64,000 bases of DNA from Chloroflexota bacterium. Lineage in GTDB: Bacteria > Chloroflexota > Chloroflexia > Chloroflexales > Roseiflexaceae. Location: positions 1 to 64,000 of the forward strand of contig JAGWYG010000003.1 of assembly GCA_018969485.1 (NCBI GenBank), written 5' to 3'. The notes beneath the pieces are model-generated. The model did not search any database. It saw only the letters and a list, made by a program, of their open reading frames with translations, and was not told where the DNA came from. Every line of letters starts with the position of its first letter. Position 1 is the stretch's first letter. The position numbers were made by a program, and so were the translations under genes. Shown here one piece after another: positions 25,704 to 53,380 of this stretch.

Positions 25704-25752
25704 TGCGCCGGCCGCCCGGCGCTCTCCTGCACCCCGGACTGCCCGGCGTGTT

Positions 25753-25850
25753 CGGGGGTAGGGTTTGTCCCAGGCACATAAGACACGCCATTCTGATGCG
25801 GCAAGCGCACGTCCAGACGTTGCGGGATGTCCGGCCCGCAAGTGGGACAC
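25753..25850 (+). repeat. Dispersed hairpin element, copy C (incomplete)
   Basis: It begins with CGGGGGTAGGG and contains the family core TGATGCGGCAAGCGCACG followed by TCCAGACGTTGCGGGATG and TCCGGCC, as in the copies at 40227, 40419 and 53272. The right half differs after TCCGGCC and the right terminal repeat is missing. It sits in the 349-bp gap between the binding lipoprotein and gltX. Confidence 0.7.
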
Positions 25851-25873
25851 CCCTCGGCTCCATCGCAGCAAAG

Positions 25874-25979
25874 CCCGCCCTGCGCGGGCGATGGTGGCAG
25901 GCCGCGTCGGCGGCCCTGGCCCCGGCGGCCGCGCCCTTCGGGGCGACGGCCCCGCCCTGCGCGGGCGATGGTGGCAGGC
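25874..25979. repeat. 29-bp direct repeat pair with hairpin
   Basis: Two identical 29-bp units at 25874-25902 and 25951-25979, 77 bp apart, each beginning CCCGCCCTGCGCGGGC and ending ATGGTGGCAGGC. The first part folds as GCCCGC/GCGGGC in the first copy. They lie directly upstream of the gltX promoter. Function unknown. Confidence 0.7.
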
Positions 25980-37301: not shown

Positions 37302-38420
37302 ATGCAATGGAGCATGGACCCCGCCGGCGCGGTCGCTACCGGCGCCGATGACGACGCGGCGCGGCCGCTGATGGCGCCACCGCTCGCGGCGCCGGGCGCC
37401 GTGATGCGCGATGCGCTGGACGACGATCCGGTCGAGCAGCACCTGATCGACCGCGTGGTCGGCGTGTTCCACGACGCCGGCTACGCCGTCGATCGCGCCG
37501 AGATCGTCGGCTATTACGTCTCGCTGAAGACCAATCCGTTCGTCCTGCTGGCCGGGCCGCAGGGCACTGGCAAGCGCGATTTCGTGTCGCTCTTCGCCGA
37601 GGGGCTGCTGGGTGCCGGCAGCGCACAGTTGGTACGCATCGCCAGCGGCGGCGCCTGGCTCGATGCGACCGGGCATGATCAGTTCTATCGCGCGTTCGTC
37701 GGGCGGTTCACCTCGCTGCAGTTCGTCGATACGCTGCGCGAGGCCGCCGAGCCGCGCTGCCGCAGCCGGCTGTACCTGGTCGCCTTCGATGCGCTGCGCC
37801 CCGAAGAGTTCACCTCGTTCTTCACCACGCTGCTGGCGGTCGATGATGCCGGCCGCATGCTGCTGACCATCCCGGGCGCGGGCACCGTCGGCGCCATCAC
37901 CCTGCCCGAGAACGTCCTGCTCACCGCGACGATCGACACCGCCGCCTATTCGCCCGCGCTGACCCGCGAGGTCGCGCGGCATGCGGCGCTGATCGCGTTC
38001 CGCGAGCCGCGCCGTGCGGCGCCGAATCGCCGGGCGGCGCTGCCCCCGCCGCCCGGCTACCAGTGGTCGTGGCGACATGCGACCATCCGCGATCCGGTGC
38101 GGGCTCGGGCGCGGCTGGCGGCTGTGCTGGGCGCCGAACAGCTGACGCGGCTGCACTGCTCGCCGGGCCTGGCCCGGCTGCTCTGGCAGGGCGGCATCGT
38201 GCTGGGCGGTGCGGCGCTGACGGGCATCACGCTGCACGTCGCCAACAGCTTCGATCGCCGCGGCCGTGGCCTGTACGATCCGGGCGATCCACTGCGCAAT
38301 GCCCAGCAGGCCTACGACGCCCAGGTGATCCAGCGGGTGCTGTGGCGGACGCGCCATGTGGTCGAGCCGGAGCTGCGCGCGGCGATCGCCGCCTGGCCGG
38401 CCGCACACGGCGGGACATAG
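37302..38420 (+). CDS. McrB-like AAA protein with degenerate ATPase motifs
   Basis: 372 aa. A P-loop LLAGPQGTGKRD (about 82-92) in a context like the McrB/MoxR AAA family, with a later LPENVLLTATIDT resembling the sensor-1 strand. The Thr/Ser that normally follows the P-loop lysine is Arg, and the Walker-B strand YLVAFDAL lacks the Asp-Glu pair, so ATP hydrolysis is doubtful although binding is possible. The first 60 residues and the last 110 look unrelated to known domains. No McrC-type nuclease or restriction partner is adjacent. It starts 16 bp behind the UGPase gene and probably ends the operon. Function unknown. Confidence 0.6.
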   Translation: MQWSMDPAGAVATGADDDAARPLMAPPLAAPGAVMRDALDDDPVEQHLIDRVVGVFHDAGYAVDRAEIVGYYVSLKTNPFVLLAGPQGTGKRDFVSLFAEGLLGAGSAQLVRIASGGAWLDATGHDQFYRAFVGRFTSLQFVDTLREAAEPRCRSRLYLVAFDALRPEEFTSFFTTLLAVDDAGRMLLTIPGAGTVGAITLPENVLLTATIDTAAYSPALTREVARHAALIAFREPRRAAPNRRAALPPPPGYQWSWRHATIRDPVRARARLAAVLGAEQLTRLHCSPGLARLLWQGGIVLGGAALTGITLHVANSFDRRGRGLYDPGDPLRNAQQAYDAQVIQRVLWRTRHVVEPELRAAIAAWPAAHGGT

Positions 38421-38774
38421 GCGCGCATGGCGACGCGCGCGCCCGGCATGGCGGCCGGGGGCGCACGGTGGATTGCGCGTTCGGGTTGCGGGCCAGCGGC
38501 CCGCGCGCCCACGCTGCCGGGAACGCGCGCCTCCGGACCGCACGCAGGCCGCCACGCCACGCCCATGCACCACCCCGCGCACCCCCACCCCGCCTGGCGC
38601 CACGCAGCCGGGGGCGCTGCGCCCCCCGGCACCCCCCCGCCCCAGCCCCAGCCCCGCACCACTGCGCCACCACCCGGCACTGCCACCACCACGCCCGCTC
38701 CCCGCACCCCACGCCCCGTCCCAGAGGCCAGAGCGCGGGCGCGCCTACGGCGTCGCCCGCCAGAGGCCAGAAAT
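38421..38774. other. Non-coding spacer with G-quadruplex candidate
   Basis: 354 bp, extremely C-rich on the plus strand with no convincing gene. On the minus strand 38655-38622 carries five runs of four to seven G separated by one to four bases, a potential G-quadruplex immediately downstream of the SUMF1-fold gene. Near its right end GGCCAGAGCGCG and GCCAGAGGCCAG form short direct repeats. Confidence 0.5.
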
Positions 38775-39911
38775 TCAGGGCCCGGGGGAGACAACGCGAA
38801 AGCCCACGAAGTTGACGCCGAAGTCGAAGACGCCCTCGATCCGCGCGCCACACACCACATCGCCCGCATTGCTGCTGAACGCGCACCCGCGCAGGATGTA
38901 ACGCCCATCATCGCCATCGTCCGCCTCGACCCACTCCCATACGTTGCCCGCCATGTCCAGCGCGCCGTACGGGCTGGCACCCGCCGGATAGCTGCCCACC
39001 GACGTCGTGTCACCGACGTCATTGTCACTCGTGTCGCCGTCCTGCGCCGGATCATAGAAGTTCGCCAGCCGCCCGTCCGGCGCCGCCTCGCCCCACGGAT
39101 ACGTCCGCCCGTCGTCGCCCTGGCACGCCCGCATCCACTCCGCCTCCGTCGGCAGCCGCCCGCCCGCCCATGCCGCGTACGCCCGCGCCTGCTCGCGCGT
39201 CACCCACACCGCCGGATGCTCCGCATACGCCGCATCCCCATAGCGCGACACCCAGTACTTCTCGGGATACCCGCTCTCGCGCAACGAAGCAGCAACACCC
39301 TCAGGCACCACCGGCACCGTGCAAGCCCCGGCCGCCACGCACTGCGCATACTGCGCGTTGGTCACCTCGGTCCGCCCGATGCGGAACGCCGCCACCCCAG
39401 CGCCCGCCGGCACGTCCACCAGCCCCTCCAGCACCCCCACCGCCGTCGCCGTCGGCGCCGCCTCCGGCACTTCTGCCATCCCCTCGCCCCCCTGCTCCGC
39501 CCGCGCCCGCGCCACCTCCCGCGCCAGCACCAGCGGGATCACCTGCTCCCCCGCCGTCGCGCTGCACCGCAGCACCGCCCGCTCGCGCCAGTCGCAGTCG
39601 AACACGACCTCCGCCACGCCTGTCAATAGCTCCGCGCTCGCATTCGTGTCCAGCCGCAGCAGGATGCGTTCTGCGCTCACGCTGTAGCGCGCCGCCTGCA
39701 CCTGCCCGCTCCCCTGCGTGATGATCAGCTCGCCATTCGGCAGCAGCTCCCATGCCGTCCCGTTCGCGTCGTACCACACCCCAAGCTGCGCGCCACCCGC
39801 CGGTTCGGCGCTGCCGCCCGGCCGCAGCCACACCAGCGCCGCAATCACGCCCACTGCGAACACGAGCATCACGCCGAGGACACCGGTAATCACCAGCAAC
39901 GTACGATTCAT
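38775..39911 (-). CDS. Membrane-anchored SUMF1-fold protein 1
   Basis: 378 aa. One N-terminal membrane helix (about 4-27), a beta-rich domain (about 45-150) of unknown type, an Ala/Glu-rich linker, and a C-terminal formylglycine-enzyme-fold domain (about 165-378): FRIGRTEVTNAQYAQCV, GGRLPTEAEWMRACQ, MAGNVWEWVE and VGFRVVSPGP. The residues equivalent to the FGE cysteines are not conserved, so an oxidase role is unlikely; the C-lectin-like fold may bind a surface ligand. ATG 39911 follows GGAAGAG. The domain is nearly the same as in the gene at 40872 and in the remnant at 41716, so the three arose by duplication. Confidence 0.8.
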   Translation of the reverse strand: MNRTLLVITGVLGVMLVFAVGVIAALVWLRPGGSAEPAGGAQLGVWYDANGTAWELLPNGELIITQGSGQVQAARYSVSAERILLRLDTNASAELLTGVAEVVFDCDWRERAVLRCSATAGEQVIPLVLAREVARARAEQGGEGMAEVPEAAPTATAVGVLEGLVDVPAGAGVAAFRIGRTEVTNAQYAQCVAAGACTVPVVPEGVAASLRESGYPEKYWVSRYGDAAYAEHPAVWVTREQARAYAAWAGGRLPTEAEWMRACQGDDGRTYPWGEAAPDGRLANFYDPAQDGDTSDNDVGDTTSVGSYPAGASPYGALDMAGNVWEWVEADDGDDGRYILRGCAFSSNAGDVVCGARIEGVFDFGVNFVGFRVVSPGP

Positions 39912-39974
39912 TACTCTTCCACTTCTCTCTCCCACTTTTCAATAGTTGCAGGCTCAATCGATGCGCTGCTATGC

Positions 39975-40047: not shown

Positions 40048-40226
40048 GCTCGACCAGCGCGCGCGTCATCGCGACAACCGCCACCGAGCATGCCGATGGA
40101 TGTCGCTTTGCCGGCATCACATGCCTGTGATGCGCCGACATTGATTCAGGCGCAGACAGGGGTATCCATGGCTGGTGGACCGTGGGATGCGGACCGAAGA
40201 TCTGCGCAACCGGGATGGCGGCCTTT

Positions 40227-40375
40227 CGGGGGCAGGTTGTTGCATAGGAGCGTAGGATGAGGCATTCTGATGCGGCAAGCGCACGTCCAGGCGTTGCGGG
40301 ATGTGTCCGGCCAGAGCCCGGGCACCAGGCGCCGCCGCGGACCAGGCTCGCCGCGCTATCCCAACACCCCCGAAC
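40227..40375 (+). repeat. Dispersed hairpin element, copy A
   Basis: Starts CGGGGGCAGGTTGTTG and ends CAACACCCCCG, which are largely inverted copies. It contains the core TGATGCGGCAAGCGCACG, then TCCAGGCGTTGCGGGATG, and near the right end CGCTATCCCAACA, which pairs with the GTTGCGGGAT part. The copy is about 149 bp and stands 43 bp before copy B in the same orientation. Confidence 0.8.
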
Positions 40376-40418
40376 GTGGATCGCCCCAGCGTGCGGGCGC
40401 ACAGGATGATCCCCATCC

Positions 40419-40571
40419 CGGGGGTAGGTGTTTTCAGAGAGGCACAGGATAAGATCTGCTGATGCGGCAAGCGCACGTCCAGGCGTTGCGGGATGTCCGG
40501 CCAGGGCCCGGGCACCAGGCGCCGCCGCAGGCCAGGCTCGCCGCGCCATCCCAGCAACCTACCTACCCCCG
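40419..40571 (+). repeat. Dispersed hairpin element, copy B (complete)
   Basis: 153 bp bounded by perfect 11-bp inverted ends CGGGGGTAGGT and ACCTACCCCCG. Inside, GTTGCGGGATG and CATCCCAGCAAC form a second inverted pair around a G+C-rich loop. The core sequence is shared with copies A, C and D. No transposase is encoded. Best reference copy of the family in this window. Confidence 0.85.
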
Positions 40572-40871
40572 AAAGGGGATGGCGGCTGGGCACGTGCGCT
40601 GCGGGATGCGGGCCTGCGCGCCGTGAGATGCGGGCCAGAGGCCCGTGCACCCGGGATGGCGACCGGGATGCGATGGCAGCCAGTGGGCGAGCGCTGCGCC
40701 CATCCGGGCAGCGGCGGCGCACGCACCTGGCCCTCTGCCGCGATCCACGGGAGCGGGACAAAGGCGAGGCCCGCACCGCCGGGCCATCGCAGCCACCCAG
40801 CGGTCGGGGAGCTCAGCTACCGGTGCCACCACACCGCCGGGGGCGCTGCGTCCATGCCGCCTGCCCGAGCG
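40572..40871. other. Spacer without recognisable gene
   Basis: G+C-rich spacer with several short GCGGGATGCGGGCC- and CGGGATG-type repeats that look like worn pieces of the neighbouring hairpin elements. No convincing frame, promoter or RNA. Confidence 0.4.
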
Positions 40872-41645
40872 TCAGGGCCCGGGGGAGACAACCCGAAACC
40901 CCACGCTGAGGTTGGCGCCGACGCCGTCGTTCTCGAACCGCGCGCCACACATCACAGAGTCCGCATTGGGGCTGAACGCGCCCCCGCGCACGACAAAGTT
41001 GCCGTCGCCCACCCACTCCCACACGTTGCCCGCCATGTCCAGCGCGCCGTACGGACTGGCCCCCGCCGGATAGCTGCCCACCGCCGTCGTACCATCGCCC
41101 AAGTCCTGGCGAAACGCAAAGTTCGCCAGCCGCTCGTCCGGCGCCGCCTCGCCCCACGGATACATCCGCCCGTCGTCGCCCTGGCACGCCCGCGTCCATT
41201 CCGTGTCCGTCGGCAGCCGCCCGCCCGCCCAGGCGGCATACTCGCGTGCCTGCTCGCGCGTCACGCACGCCACCGGATGCTCGGCATACGCCGCATTGCT
41301 GTAGTTGCAACCATCGAACGTCTCCGGCACTGTGCAGGCGCCCGCCGCGACACACTGCGCGTACTGCGCGTTGGTCACCTCGGTGCGCCCGATGCGGAAT
41401 GCCGCCACGCCGTCGCCGGCCGGTACGGCCATGTATTCAGCTCCGACGCGATCGGTGAACACCGCCGCCTCTGGCTCTGGCATCGCAGTCGGCTCTGGCA
41501 TCGCAGTCGGCTCTGGCATCGCAGCTGGCGATGCCACCGGTGCATCGTCAGGAACGGTGTCTGGCGCACCACACATCGTGAGGAGCACACCTGCAAGGAC
41601 GCTGGCCATCACCAGCAGTGCGGGTGGACGTCGAGGTGCCATCAT
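40872..41645 (-). CDS. SUMF1-fold protein 2, probable lipoprotein
   Basis: 257 aa. An N-terminal hydrophobic segment ends in LLTMC-GAP, a weak lipobox, so surface anchoring is likely. A linker with three MPEPTA-type hexapeptides follows, then one FGE-fold domain almost identical in motif content to that of SUMF1 protein 1 (FRIGRTEVTNAQYAQCV, AWAGGRLPTDTEWTRACQ, MAGNVWEWVGDG, VGFRVVSPGP). It lacks the beta-rich middle domain of protein 1. ATG 41645 (Met-Met start) has AAGGAAG 7 nt ahead. Catalytic FGE cysteines are absent. Likely ligand-binding surface protein; function unknown. Confidence 0.8.
   Translation of the reverse strand: MMAPRRPPALLVMASVLAGVLLTMCGAPDTVPDDAPVASPAAMPEPTAMPEPTAMPEPEAAVFTDRVGAEYMAVPAGDGVAAFRIGRTEVTNAQYAQCVAAGACTVPETFDGCNYSNAAYAEHPVACVTREQAREYAAWAGGRLPTDTEWTRACQGDDGRMYPWGEAAPDERLANFAFRQDLGDGTTAVGSYPAGASPYGALDMAGNVWEWVGDGNFVVRGGAFSPNADSVMCGARFENDGVGANLSVGFRVVSPGP
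41473..41524. repeat. 18-bp tandem repeat coding MPEPTA
   Basis: Nearly three copies of GGCTCTGGCATCGCAGTC inside the SUMF1 gene 2 linker. In-frame, so copy number can vary the linker length. Confidence 0.85.
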
Positions 41646-41715
41646 GATCGACTTCCTTTCTGCATGAGCGCAATGCCCTCTGGCCCATCTCCGCAGCCTG
41701 CCGGAGTCCAGGGCG

Positions 41716-42030
41716 TCAGGACCCGGGAGAGGCGACCTGAAACCCCACCAACCGTAGCCGCGGTCGGAGTCGTCCCCATCCTGTACGACGCGCGCCACAC
41801 GAACCGTAGCGCAGGTGGACGCGCCCCGCGCGCAGATGCCGTCGGCCCATTTCGCCACGGTGTGCCGGCCATGTCGATCGCGCCGTACGGATTGGCGCCG
41901 CCGGGTAGCCGCCCACCGGCGCTGCGCCTCCCAGCGCATGGTTCCGGTCGCCGTTCATCCGCGTCGCGTCGGGCGGCTGGCTGCCCCGCGTCCGCTGCGC
42001 CTCCGTCGGCGGCGCGCGGGATGTGGCGTA
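41716..42030 (-). pseudogene. Decayed SUMF1-fold gene 3
   Basis: On the minus strand fragments of the same FGE-fold domain appear in different frames: APPTEAQRTRGSQ (compare LPTEAEWTRACQ), LPGGANPYGAIDMAGTPW (compare YPAGASPYGALDMAGNVWEW) and LVGFQVASPGS before a stop (compare SVGFRVVSPGP). At least one frameshift and the loss of the 5' two thirds make it non-functional. It lies between SUMF1 gene 2 and the GH35 gene, next to the intact paralogues. Confidence 0.8.
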
Positions 42031-44175
42031 TCAGTGCCAGGCGCACACGCGCACCGTCTCCGGCGCGGCATCAGTCTCCTCGAACAGCACGAGGGTGTTC
42101 TCGTCGGCGAGCCATTCAGCCGGTAGGTGATAGTAGCGCTGCGTCGGTTCGCCGACGCCGCGGTCGATGATCGCCGTCGCCAGCCAGGCATCGCTCGTGC
42201 CGGTGGCGGCGATCAGCCAGTAGCGCCCGATCAGCCGCCCGTTCAGCCACGCCAGGCCTTTGCCCATGCCGGCCAGATCGAGCGCCAGCGGCGCATCATC
42301 GCCGGGGCGGCTGAACTGCGCGCGCCACCAGCGCAAGGGCCGGGCGGCGTCCGGCGCACGCCAGCCTGCCGCGTCCGCGCCGGCGGTAACCGCCGTGCGC
42401 TCGCCCGCGAGGCCGGGCCACATCGTCCAGGGTCCGGCAAGCTGGCGCGCATTCCACAACACCGGCCGCCACAGCCCCTTGGCTTCGCCGGCCATATTCT
42501 GGAAGCCGATCTGCCAGTCGCCCTTGACCATGCCGACGGCACAGCACAGGATGTCGAGGCGATGCGCGCCGGCGGGCAGCGTGAGCGGGAAGCGCAGCAC
42601 GAAGGTGTCATCGCCATCGTAGGTGAACATCGCATCGTAGCGCTTGCGCACCTCGCCGGCGAAGGCCGCCAGGTCGCCATCGGTGCGCATGCGGTTCTCG
42701 AGCAGCAGCGCCGGGCCGTTCGCCACACACACGCCATCGATGAAGCAATACACGAGATCGGCCGCGCCACCGAGCACCAGCGTCCCGGCGCCGGCTTCGT
42801 CGTCCGCGATCGTGAGCGTGGTGCTGTACCAGCAGTAGTCGCTGCGATCATGCGTCAGACGCAGTTGCTCGATCGGCTGGTCGGCCCGATGCGCCCCGTC
42901 GGCGGCGCGCTCGGCGGGCCACGGTTCGTCGCGGCACGCAAACGCCAGGTACGGGCCAGCCGGCTGCATCGCCCGGCTGATGCGGTCGCCCGGCGCCACG
43001 ACCGCGGTGTCGAACGCCAGCGCCCCGTCGGCGATGATCAGCACAGCGCGGGGTGCGACCAGCACGCTGCGGCCGGCGTGCTGCCACTCGCGCGCGGTCG
43101 TGCGGTCATCATTGCAGACGAACTCCAGCGTGTGGCCGGCGTGGGCGTAGCGATACCCGACCAGGCCGCCGCCGAGCGGCGTGGCGACGGCGCGCCCGGC
43201 GCCGAGCAGCGTCGCCGCGTGGCGCAGCAGCACCCGGTGCAGCGCCGCCGCATGGCGCGACTTCGTCGTCTCGAGGCCGTACTCGTCGAGCGGCGCATCG
43301 TAGTCGTAGCTGGTAGTCTGCAGGTACATCGACTCGCGGCCAAAGTTGGTGCCGCCGTGCCACATGTAGTAATTCACCCCGGTGCCGCCGGCGGCGATGA
43401 AGCGTGCCACGCCGTAGGCCACGTTCTCGGCGGCGCGGGTGTGATGCGGATACCCCCACAGGTCGTACCAGCCCGGCCAGTTCTCGGTCCACAGCGATGG
43501 CTGGTCGGGATGCGTCGCGTGATGATCATCGATCATCTCGTGACCATAGAACCCGTTGATCGTCTCGATCGCGCCGGGCATGCCGCCGACGCACATCACC
43601 CACGGCACGCCCACCTCGAGCGTGCGGCCGAGCTCGATGGCCCATCCCAGGTAGCGCTGGCCGGTCTCGCCGTAGGTCGGTGCGATCAGGCCATACTCGT
43701 TCTCGATCTGCGCCAGGATGATCGGCCCGCCGTTCCCGGCGAACAACGGATCGAGGTATGCGCACAGCCAGCGCACCCAGCGCTCCATCTCGGCCATGAA
43801 CGGCGCATTGATCGTGCGGAACTGAATGTCCGGAATGTCGCGCAGCCAGGCAGGAAAGCCGCCGAAGTTGATCTCGGCACAGATGTAGGGGCCGATGCGC
43901 AGGATGACGTGCATGCCCTGGCGCTGCGCCTCGCGGCAGAACGCCACGAGATCGAGCCGGTCGCTGAAATCGTAGACGCCGCGCTCGGCCTCGTGCAGGT
44001 TCCAGAAGACGTATGTCTCGATGGTGTTGAGGCCGGCCTCGCGGCTGCGGCGGATCAGCCCGGGCCACATCGCCGGCGTGCTGCGCGGGTAGTGGATCGC
44101 GCCACTGAGCAGGAGCGTGCGCTCCCCGTCGATCAGCAACGCGCGGCGGTCATATCCGATCTGCTTCTCTGTCAT
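42031..44175 (-). CDS. GH35 beta-galactosidase
   Basis: 714 aa glycoside hydrolase family 35, hydrolysing terminal beta-galactosides. The TIM barrel begins with LLSGAIHYPRSTPAMWPGLI and WNLHE; the acid/base Glu is in AQIENEYG (about 160) and the nucleophile Glu in LWTENWPGW (about 235), followed by YYMWHGGTNFG. C-terminal jelly-roll domains (about 390-714) are present. No signal peptide, so probably cytoplasmic, acting on imported oligosaccharides. ATG 44175 follows a weak GAGGGAT site, with a TATAAT promoter about 70 bp upstream. Single gene; the neighbouring SUMF1 remnant abuts its 3' end. Confidence 0.9.
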   Translation of the reverse strand: MTEKQIGYDRRALLIDGERTLLLSGAIHYPRSTPAMWPGLIRRSREAGLNTIETYVFWNLHEAERGVYDFSDRLDLVAFCREAQRQGMHVILRIGPYICAEINFGGFPAWLRDIPDIQFRTINAPFMAEMERWVRWLCAYLDPLFAGNGGPIILAQIENEYGLIAPTYGETGQRYLGWAIELGRTLEVGVPWVMCVGGMPGAIETINGFYGHEMIDDHHATHPDQPSLWTENWPGWYDLWGYPHHTRAAENVAYGVARFIAAGGTGVNYYMWHGGTNFGRESMYLQTTSYDYDAPLDEYGLETTKSRHAAALHRVLLRHAATLLGAGRAVATPLGGGLVGYRYAHAGHTLEFVCNDDRTTAREWQHAGRSVLVAPRAVLIIADGALAFDTAVVAPGDRISRAMQPAGPYLAFACRDEPWPAERAADGAHRADQPIEQLRLTHDRSDYCWYSTTLTIADDEAGAGTLVLGGAADLVYCFIDGVCVANGPALLLENRMRTDGDLAAFAGEVRKRYDAMFTYDGDDTFVLRFPLTLPAGAHRLDILCCAVGMVKGDWQIGFQNMAGEAKGLWRPVLWNARQLAGPWTMWPGLAGERTAVTAGADAAGWRAPDAARPLRWWRAQFSRPGDDAPLALDLAGMGKGLAWLNGRLIGRYWLIAATGTSDAWLATAIIDRGVGEPTQRYYHLPAEWLADENTLVLFEETDAAPETVRVCAWH

Positions 44176-44746: not shown

Positions 44747-44933
44747 GGTGGTCCCTCTCGTCATGTCGCTGGCTGCATCAGGGGCTGGCATCACGATTCA
44801 GCGCAGATGATGCCCCTGCCAGTCCCCATCGTCCGGGCGTCATGTCCGGGCGCCCGCTCAGCGGCTACGACGCGAGCGCGCCGGGAATTGTTGCGACACG
44901 CCGGCATCGCTGGCGCGCGGGCCAGGAGCAGCG

Positions 44934-45226
44934 TCACACGAAGCCACGAAGACACGAAGGGGGACGGTCTCACACGAAGCCACGAAGCCACGAAGGGCCG
45001 GGCGTACGGCTCACACGAAGCCACGAAGCCACGAAGGGCCGGGAGTACGGCTCACACGAAGACACGAAGCCACGAAGGGCCGGAAGACGGGAGACGGGCG
45101 TACGGCTCACACGAAGACACGAAGCCACGAAGGGCCAGGAGTACGGCTCACACGAAGGCACGAAGCCACGAAGGACCGGAAGACGGGCGTACGGCTCACA
45201 CGAAGCCACGAAGGCACGAGGGGGCG
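44934..45226. repeat. Tandem array of 36-55 bp CACGAAG repeats
   Basis: Seven units starting TCACACGAAG at 44934, 44970, 45011, 45052, 45107, 45148 and 45196. Each carries two or three CACGAAG heptads separated by single bases or GC, then a variable GGGCCGG-(A/G)GTACGGC tail. Common step 41 bp. The 543-bp gap 44747-45289 otherwise holds nothing recognisable. The steps and tails are irregular and there is no cas gene, so this is not CRISPR. The array lies in the downstream region of rodA. Confidence 0.85.
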
Positions 45227-45289
45227 AGAGGCGGGGGGGTGGGTGTCACACGGACGCACGCCGGCGGCGTAATCGACGCGAACCGGCGC

Positions 45290-46393
45290 TCAGAACACGA
45301 TGCGTGCGCGGCGCAGTGCGATGCTCTGCAGCAGCCCGATCGCCGCGAGCGAGGTGAGGGTGAAGCTACCGCCATACGAGACAAAGGGCAATGGGATTCC
45401 GGTGATCGGCATAATGCTCATGTTCATGCCGACGTGAACGAACACATGGCAGATGAACATCGCCGCGACCCCGGTGGCAATCAGCCGGCCGAACACATCG
45501 CGGGCCTCGGCGCCGATGCTGAGCGCCTGCCAGATCAGCGCCAGCTGGAAGATCAGCAGCAGCGTCGCGCCGGCAAACCCAAGCTCCTCGCCGGTCACGG
45601 CAAAGATGAAATCGGAGTACTGGACCGGCAGGTAGTTGCCCTGACTGAGGATACCGCGCGTCCATCCCTGGCCGAACATGCCGCCGGAGCCGATGGCGGT
45701 GAGCGCCTGGATGATGTTCCAGGCCCCCTCCTTGAGATCGGGATCGAACCGCAGCGGATCGATGAAGATCAGCAGCCGGGTGCGCTGGTAGTCCTGCAGA
45801 ATCTCGTTCCAGCCATACCAGCCGACCGGGATGGCGGCGAGCGCGAGGATCAGCAGGTGCCACCAGCGTGACCGTGCATTCCAGGCCATCAGCAGCCAGA
45901 TCGATGACAGCACCATGGCGGTGCCGAAGTCGGGCTGGATGAAGACCAGCAGCGTCGGGACGCCGGCGAGGATGAGGCTCAGCAGGAAGATGCGCCACGT
46001 GCCGGCGTCGCGCTCGGCGCGCGCCCAGAACGCGGCGAGCGCCACGATCACCAGGATCTTGGCCGGCTCGGAGGGCTGAAAGGTGCGGATGCCGAAATCG
46101 AGCCAGCTCTGCGCGCCGGAGCTGACCTGGCCGATGGCGAGGACGACGCCGAGCGCGAGCAGGGTGGCCAGGTAGAGTGGCAGGACCCAGGCCTCGAACG
46201 CGTGGTAATCGAGCACCGTCAGCAGCACCATCACGATCGCGCCGACGATGATGTTGACGATGTGTCGCGAGAAGTAGCCCTGGGTGTACGGCACATTCGC
46301 GGTCGCGCTGTAGACCATCGCCAGGCTGAAGGCGATCAGCACGATGACACAACCGAACAACGTATAATTGAATGAGCGCCATGACCGTATCAT
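45290..46393 (-). CDS. rodA: RodA/FtsW-family peptidoglycan polymerase
   Basis: 367-aa SEDS protein with about ten membrane helices. It polymerises lipid II glycan strands with a class B penicillin-binding protein for cell elongation. The RodA-type features PSEPAKI (about 115), FIQPDFGTAMV (about 150) and the periplasmic GSGGMFGQGW followed by HTDFIFA-like YSDFIFAVTGEELGF are intact, as is the terminal GIPLPFVSYGGS. The start is ATG 46393 because TATACT ends 6 nt ahead, so the mRNA is probably leaderless. Divergent from the ABC gene with only 38 bp between start codons. Confidence 0.9.
   Translation of the reverse strand: MIRSWRSFNYTLFGCVIVLIAFSLAMVYSATANVPYTQGYFSRHIVNIIVGAIVMVLLTVLDYHAFEAWVLPLYLATLLALGVVLAIGQVSSGAQSWLDFGIRTFQPSEPAKILVIVALAAFWARAERDAGTWRIFLLSLILAGVPTLLVFIQPDFGTAMVLSSIWLLMAWNARSRWWHLLILALAAIPVGWYGWNEILQDYQRTRLLIFIDPLRFDPDLKEGAWNIIQALTAIGSGGMFGQGWTRGILSQGNYLPVQYSDFIFAVTGEELGFAGATLLLIFQLALIWQALSIGAEARDVFGRLIATGVAAMFICHVFVHVGMNMSIMPITGIPLPFVSYGGSFTLTSLAAIGLLQSIALRRARIVF
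46363..46368 (+). promoter_or_regulatory. -10 box for ABC exporter gene, inside rodA
   Basis: TATAAT on the plus strand lying within the first codons of the opposite rodA gene; predicted start near 46375, leaving a 57-nt leader with AAGGAG before GTG 46432. An ATG at 46372 in the same frame might serve a leaderless form. Confidence 0.45.
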
Positions 46394-53170: not shown

Positions 53171-53271
53171 TGAACCGGGGCCAGCACGCATGGCTATGTC
53201 AACGTTCTTGAAGCCCTGCCCCCGAGCCCCAGCAGAGGTGATGTTGACGTGGCCCCCGACCGTCAGCCCCC

Positions 53272-53380
53272 AATGCGGCAAGAGCACGTCTGGGCGTTTC
53301 GGGATGTCTGACCGGGAGGCTCGAGACGCCAGGCGCCGCAGTTGGCGAAGCGCGCCGCGTGATCTCAGCATCCCCGAACG
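53272..53380 (+). repeat. Dispersed hairpin element, copy D (worn)
   Basis: Carries a degenerate core AATGCGGCAAGAGCACG, then GGGCGTTTCGGGATG, ACGCCAGGCGCCGC and CAGCATCCCCGAACG. Similar in order to copies A and B but with many changes; the left end is not clear. It lies between tpx and mtnA, just before the mtnA promoter, in the same plus orientation as the other copies. Confidence 0.65.

Follow-up and report, generated by a model that had tools for sequence, protein, structure and literature searches.

What is a sequence of about 150 bp that lies in several intergenic places within one stretch of bacterial DNA, and that is predicted to fold into a long hairpin? We examined this question in the window (the whole analysed stretch, 64,000 nucleotides in length, from a Chloroflexota bacterium of the Roseiflexaceae), in its genome and in related genomes. 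Our answer, in which we have high confidence, is that the element is a non-autonomous MITE that arose by internal deletion from an IS4-family insertion sequence (IS) of Chloroflexales. We base this reading on terminal inverted repeats, target-site duplications, copies throughout the genome (at least 73), the corresponding site in a congener and homology to the ends of a parental IS. A sequence-only reading of the same DNA had offered a MITE, a REP-like element or a structured RNA, and these observations favour the first of its options.

Copies in the window and in the genome

Four copies are found in the window in a common orientation, all assigned to the minus strand. With up to three mismatches allowed, chance would yield 0.56 occurrences of the core in the window, and four occurrences were never reached in 100 shuffles. 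The four copies in one orientation that had been reported are thereby confirmed, and their intergenic placement holds for all four when coding-like open reading frames and Pfam domains are considered. Not all of them are complete, as only two of the reported copies (40224-40374 and 40419-40571) extend over the whole element and the other two are truncated. The most complete copy in the window (copy 2) spans 40414-40575, which is the interval 40419-40571 of the earlier reading plus terminal bases, and its nhmmer score of 140 bits is the best of all copies. Copy 1 (40224-40374, 129 bits) is oriented by alignment to a related IS (L259) and to two relics (L193 and L256); its left end on the plus strand is the right end of the IS, the sense of the parent IS lies on its minus strand, and its right end on the plus strand has a short form (ATCCCAACACCCCCGAACG). 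The third copy (25751-25879; 77 bits, model positions 2-127 of 154) is missing the right end of the plus strand and, as judged from Pfam, has a solute-binding protein gene on one side and a glutamyl/glutaminyl-tRNA synthetase-type gene on the other. The fourth (53270-53378; 73 bits, model positions 44-153 of 154) is missing the left end of the plus strand and is flanked, by the same analysis, by a redoxin gene and an IF-2B-family gene.

Other repeats are also present in the window. A dispersed repeat with many copies in the genome (25835-25975, with GCCCGCCCTGCGCGGGCGATGG) adjoins the third MITE copy, and a tandem array of its ~115-bp units is present elsewhere (G003:C1:1340959-1342364). At about 44850-45350 on the plus strand, open reading frame translations with runs such as HTKPRRHEG correspond to tandem DNA repeats of the CACGAAG type.

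A search of the core against the full genome and its relatives, which had been proposed as a check, revealed at least 73 distinct copies, 47 of them near full length (~150 bp), with a summed length of 9.7 kb and all within the own genome, a 4.0-Mb draft MAG of 247 contigs. These were collected by DNA, sequence-profile and pattern searches followed by profile-HMM re-scoring with a threshold of at least 30 bits, and the count is a lower bound, as only so many candidates were scored and several copies are situated at contig ends. Because the median pairwise identity in an alignment of 44 copies is 73% (5-95% range 66-80%), we regard the copies as old. Among 60 genomes (the own genome, one congener and further members of the family and order), no credible copy was found outside the own genome. 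The relatives gave only weak matches that were short or lacked the ends, and one locus (L111 in G037) has one similar end and a core that does not match. Furthermore, the core was not found in plasmids or viral contigs, its exact pattern had no match in a collection of GTDB contigs that may omit the own genome, and no earlier description of the element was found in a library of open-access papers. Two outcomes that would have weighed against a mobile element, namely that only the four copies exist or that the inverted ends are not conserved in others, were not observed.

Six of the copies (L046, L153, L154, L156, L195 and L201, on contigs C133, C71, C72, C83, C128 and C151) form one supported clade (100/99). 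Flanking repeats on both sides are shared by most members of this subfamily, whose spread thus seems to have been that of a larger repeat containing them.

Element ends and insertion sites

The terminal inverted repeats are 15-19 bp in length, with the consensus ends CGTTCGGGGGYAGGTTGTT and AACAACCTACCCCCGAACG, and the outermost ends of the pair formed by copies 1 and 2 match at 94% across 16 bp (40222-40237 and 40561-40576). Inverted ends had been noticed earlier and are real, although the 11 bp then assigned to them was too short. An inner inverted pair, GTTGCGGGATG and CATCCCAGCAAC, is likewise present as described, but the helix it might form is backed by almost no covariation, and its two halves come from different regions of the parent IS.

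Target-site duplications, which had been recommended as a check, were found by flank comparison at the level of MITE arrays and measure 10-12 bp. When each copy was assessed individually, the excess of direct repeats was modest (p 0.009). This per-copy signal is weak because several copies sit in same-orientation arrays of two or three. With arrays treated as units, the mean flank match was 5.84 compared to 4.19 for shuffled pairs, a difference not equalled in any of 50,000 permutations, and nine arrays had a flank score of at least 9 where 0.25 were expected. The flank score penalizes transitions less, and does so equally for real and shuffled pairs. Examples include GGGATGGCGGC at the window dimer, GCCCGGATGCC at a dimer on contig C111 and GGCGACGATCC at a monomer on contig C75, and paired duplications differ chiefly by transitions, in line with old insertions. 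No convincing duplication is seen at about 20 of the 37 arrays; old copies would be expected to behave in this way, and so would truncated or recombined ones.

The window dimer falls in the best-scoring class of this array-level comparison. Its duplication (GGGATGGCGGC) occupies 40212-40222 on the left and 40576-40586 on the right. This 11-bp duplication and the outer inverted repeat delimit a whole inserted unit of about 353 bp (40223-40575) that consists of copy 1, a spacer and copy 2.

The congener (G001) has no element at this locus and has one FGE-type gene compared to two in the window. Synteny is evident at 37534-38439 (88%), at the FGE-sulfatase gene (38687-39925, 77%) and at a GH35 beta-galactosidase gene (42013-42981, 88%), and the intergenic alignment extends up to the duplication (CCGGGATGGCGG / CCGAGGTGGCGG), with CCGAGGTGGCGG in the congener at the position of the left duplication. 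This intergenic alignment is weak, with a score of 263 when 355 bases are removed at the duplication versus 248 when the element is kept; the former is the best among the tested removal positions, and some others, including one 100 bases off, give 260. As judged from this alignment, the stretch in the congener is consistent with an empty site, short of proof. The orthologue of the gene upstream of the copy at 25751 matches at 87% in the congener, where the ~165 bases past its stop codon to the contig end carry no copy.

The FGE-sulfatase (SUMF1-type) genes of the window are neighbours on the minus strand (38775-39935 and 40872-41939), and a cluster of FGE-related sequences is present on contig C424 of the congener. 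FGE-sulfatase-type domains can be targets of diversity-generating retroelements.

Descent from an IS4-family insertion sequence

A transposase with matching terminal repeats, another feature proposed for examination, does exist in related Chloroflexales, but none was found in intact form in the own genome. A pattern search of relatives revealed that the terminal repeat is multi-copy in several other Chloroflexales, where it often lies 50-80 bases from a contig end, as would be the case for a collapsed IS. Chloroflexales IS4-family elements with the same terminal repeats measure 1.3-1.6 kb. For example, an element of 1.59 kb in G050 (L248:485-2090) has both ends and an open frame of 467 codons, whose product is a transposase of the IS4 type (NCBIfam NF033591, E 2.4e-19; Pfam DDE_Tnp_1 weak). 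A protein search of 150 relatives identified an intact transposase of 421 residues in a Chloroflexales MAG (L259; NF033591, E 4.2e-16). For both elements NF033591 is the sole NCBIfam match, at 59-70 bits against a curated cut-off of 152. The IS4 family is marked by a single ORF, by the motifs D(60-110)D(100-150)E and Y(2)R(3)E(6)K, and by duplications of about 10 bp (8-13) (PMC2266710). Both transposases have D(62)D(103)E, and Y(2)R(3)E(6)K is present as YGWRGWCEQSFTSTK in L259 and with D replacing Y in L248. A target duplication is not clear at either locus. Shorter elements with the same ends include one of 170 bp with an exact 12-bp duplication (CTACTGCCGCAC) in G006, a genome of the same family as that of the window, and one of 690 bp in G056. 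A group of Chloroflexales IS4-family elements with its own end sequence is thus documented.

The MITE consensus can be read on the minus strand as a condensed version of such an element. It proceeds from the left IS end (TTCGGGGGTAGGTTGTTGG..GGCGAGCCTGGC, as in L259) through a junction to codons for RRLAPEPWPDIPQRLDVRLPHQ and on to the right end. The counterparts of RRLAPEPWPDIPQRLDVRLPHQ are PRRLVPEPWPAIPR in L259 and PRQLVPEPWPITPPPRAR in L248; in copy 2, consensus translation and alignment to transposase C-termini place this remnant of the last ~22 transposase codons at 40460-40527 on the minus strand. The consensus gives a DNA alignment to L259 that has no break between PEPWP and the right terminal repeat (94 columns, 70%, E 7.8e-5), and its score of 77 is 8 sd above that of shuffled sequences (mean 32, sd 5.4). 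The consensus also aligns, separately, to the left end of L259. At the DNA level, even the nearest intact relative shares only ~70% identity with the consensus. In the own genome, relics on contigs C70 (L193) and C147 (L256) have the core joined to preceding transposase sequence (..IQGQVLPMPRCLTPEPWPGIPR..), and the L193 alignment scores 113 versus 40 for shuffles (sd 6.5, 11 sd above). Because these relics join core and transposase, we conclude that the parent IS once existed in this lineage, and we infer that it was functional.

No intact parental IS was found in the own MAG, where relics alone are present. Two PF01609 matches in this genome were ruled out as the parent, as they are without MITE-type ends, and a remnant on contig C52 was also rejected in that it represents a different IS4-like group, whose ends resemble CAGGTGTAGGGTTTT. 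This degraded element (L253:1391-2240) occurs in relatives as well (L266, L267 and L281).

The G050 element additionally contains five copies of a 28-nt repeat (ACTCCGCCCCCACGCGCGCGGGATCACC) with an exact 61-bp period (L248:1742-2022, on contig C80). The 33-nt stretches between the repeats all differ, and the array, which overlaps the 3′ end of the transposase gene, looks like a small type I-E CRISPR array within an insertion sequence. Another copy of this same IS (L252) has one 28-nt repeat, and L250 has one diverged repeat. An exact search of viral contigs with the 28-nt repeat, and with 22-24-nt portions of three out of its four spacers, found no match.

Of the IS, the MITE thus keeps only the left end (about 45 bp), the last ~22 transposase codons and the right end, which add up to ~150 bp with no gene. 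We propose that a full-length copy supplied the IS4-family DDE transposase in trans, which would have bound the terminal repeats and moved the short element, with target duplications of 10-12 bp remaining at the sites of insertion. The core common to all copies would then be the leftover between the two ends.

RNA, REP and coding explanations

A rival reading is that the element is a dispersed structured RNA gene or a cis-regulatory RNA; a structured RNA had been among the options of the sequence-only reading. Folding of the consensus predicts a long hairpin for both strands (-78 and -81 kcal/mol), but inverted ends alone would produce this, and it follows here from those ends and the GC-rich sequence. 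For 44 copies with ~73% identity, the consensus energy is -7.4 kcal/mol and the covariation term -0.35; compensatory change is seen in 2 of 15 pairs. There is no Rfam match at the locus, and target duplications and IS homology account for both the inverted ends and the core. We therefore consider an RNA function highly improbable, and this frequent ~150-bp repeat, which gains a name and a mechanism, can be dropped from the list of candidate RNAs.

The REP-like option, in which a REP/BIME-type palindrome is mobilized by a RAYT (Y1 HuH) transposase, fares no better and merits very little credence. Although the element is intergenic, palindromic, GC-rich and clustered, and its spacer repeat looks REP-like, it is a unit of ~150 bp with true terminal inverted repeats of IS4 type, duplications of 10-12 bp and homology to a DDE transposase gene. 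It is extremely unlikely that the core encodes a conserved small protein. The consensus is open across most of its length in some frames, but third-position variability is not raised in the old transposase frame and several copies carry frameshifting indels. An apparent codon period of three was lost in a permutation test on the old transposase segment (p 0.09). Integron attC sites were also rejected as an explanation, given that the element ends with GTT on the left and AAC on the right, which is the reverse of the orientation of attC ends.

Possible insertion as dimers and trimers

MITE arrays hold two or three copies in direct orientation, separated by a hairpin-repeat spacer, and a single target duplication bounds the whole unit. 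In the window, the spacer at 40375-40413 (CGTGGATCGCCCCAGCGTGCGGGCGC..GGATGATCCCCA) is another dispersed repeat of the hairpin type. This GC-rich hairpin repeat occurs in at least 30 places in the genome, mostly adjoining the element, and a similar one borders the 690-bp relative in G056; hairpins of this kind may be favoured as insertion targets. Among the 47 near-full copies, the spacer repeat is located after 12 and before 14, and on both sides of only 2. The right end is 4-5 bases shorter in 7 of the 10 copies preceding a spacer and in 4 of the 24 others (Fisher p 0.005; measurable ends only, with 13 copies unmeasurable), a pattern that hints at a weakened inner end and at use of the outer ends.

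Tentatively, and recognizing that the proposal is rather doubtful, we suggest that the MITE moves as composite dimers and trimers that use their outermost ends, have weakened inner ends and carry a REP-like hairpin as a spacer. If true, the arrays would constitute a gene-less composite transposon, and small repeats could spread other repeats. A competing explanation, whose probability we place somewhat short of even, is that one copy was inserted and later duplicated in place with a spacer, in which case the outer duplication dates from the first insertion. Such an origin concerns the arrays only and is compatible with the MITE reading. A tree of 61 copies gives a mixed picture. Neighbouring copies are mutual nearest relatives on contigs C111 (98/93), C208 (100/99) and C52 (99/96), as duplication in place would predict, although local similarity could also stem from gene conversion. 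However, first copies from separate loci form two joint groupings, each a pair (81/80 and 96/91), and the two window copies do not have each other as closest kin. Duplication in place is also at odds with the same kind of spacer repeat between the copies of different dimers, and with the tendency, which underlies the Fisher comparison, of first copies to have a short inner right end and of last copies to have a long one.

Comparison with known systems

In this Chloroflexales genome, the element constitutes a new family of MITEs that originated from an IS4-family IS, and its kind is itself ordinary. The dimers and trimer inserted as units are the less usual aspect and are worth a further look. 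The element resembles other bacterial MITEs formed by internal IS deletion in that it is short, gene-less, intergenic and present in high copy number, keeps the IS ends and is associated with target duplications. It differs from them by retaining some transposase C-terminal codons and by its insertion as dimers and trimers with a foreign hairpin spacer. The parent represented by L259 agrees with the IS4 family (PMC2266710) in its single ORF, D(62)D(103)E and Y(2)R(3)E(6)K motifs, length of 1.3-1.6 kb and duplications of about one helix turn. In contrast, its ends, (C/G)TTTCGGGGGTAGGT, do not fit any listed subgroup end signature well, the NCBIfam scores are under the cut-off, the own genome is without an intact copy, and the Y of YREK is D in G050.

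Two other systems offer partial parallels. REP and BIME sequences (PMC3733652) are likewise dispersed intergenic palindromes that cluster with other repeats, whereas REPs are 20-40 bp in length and the element described here is ~150 bp with IS4 ends and target duplications. The BrickBuilt MITE of Porphyromonas gingivalis (PMC4596501) is similarly intergenic and species-limited, and has internal repetition between leader and tail ends. However, BrickBuilt repeats a 23-nt minisatellite without spacers, whereas here the repeated unit is a whole MITE together with a spacer of ~40-110 bp.
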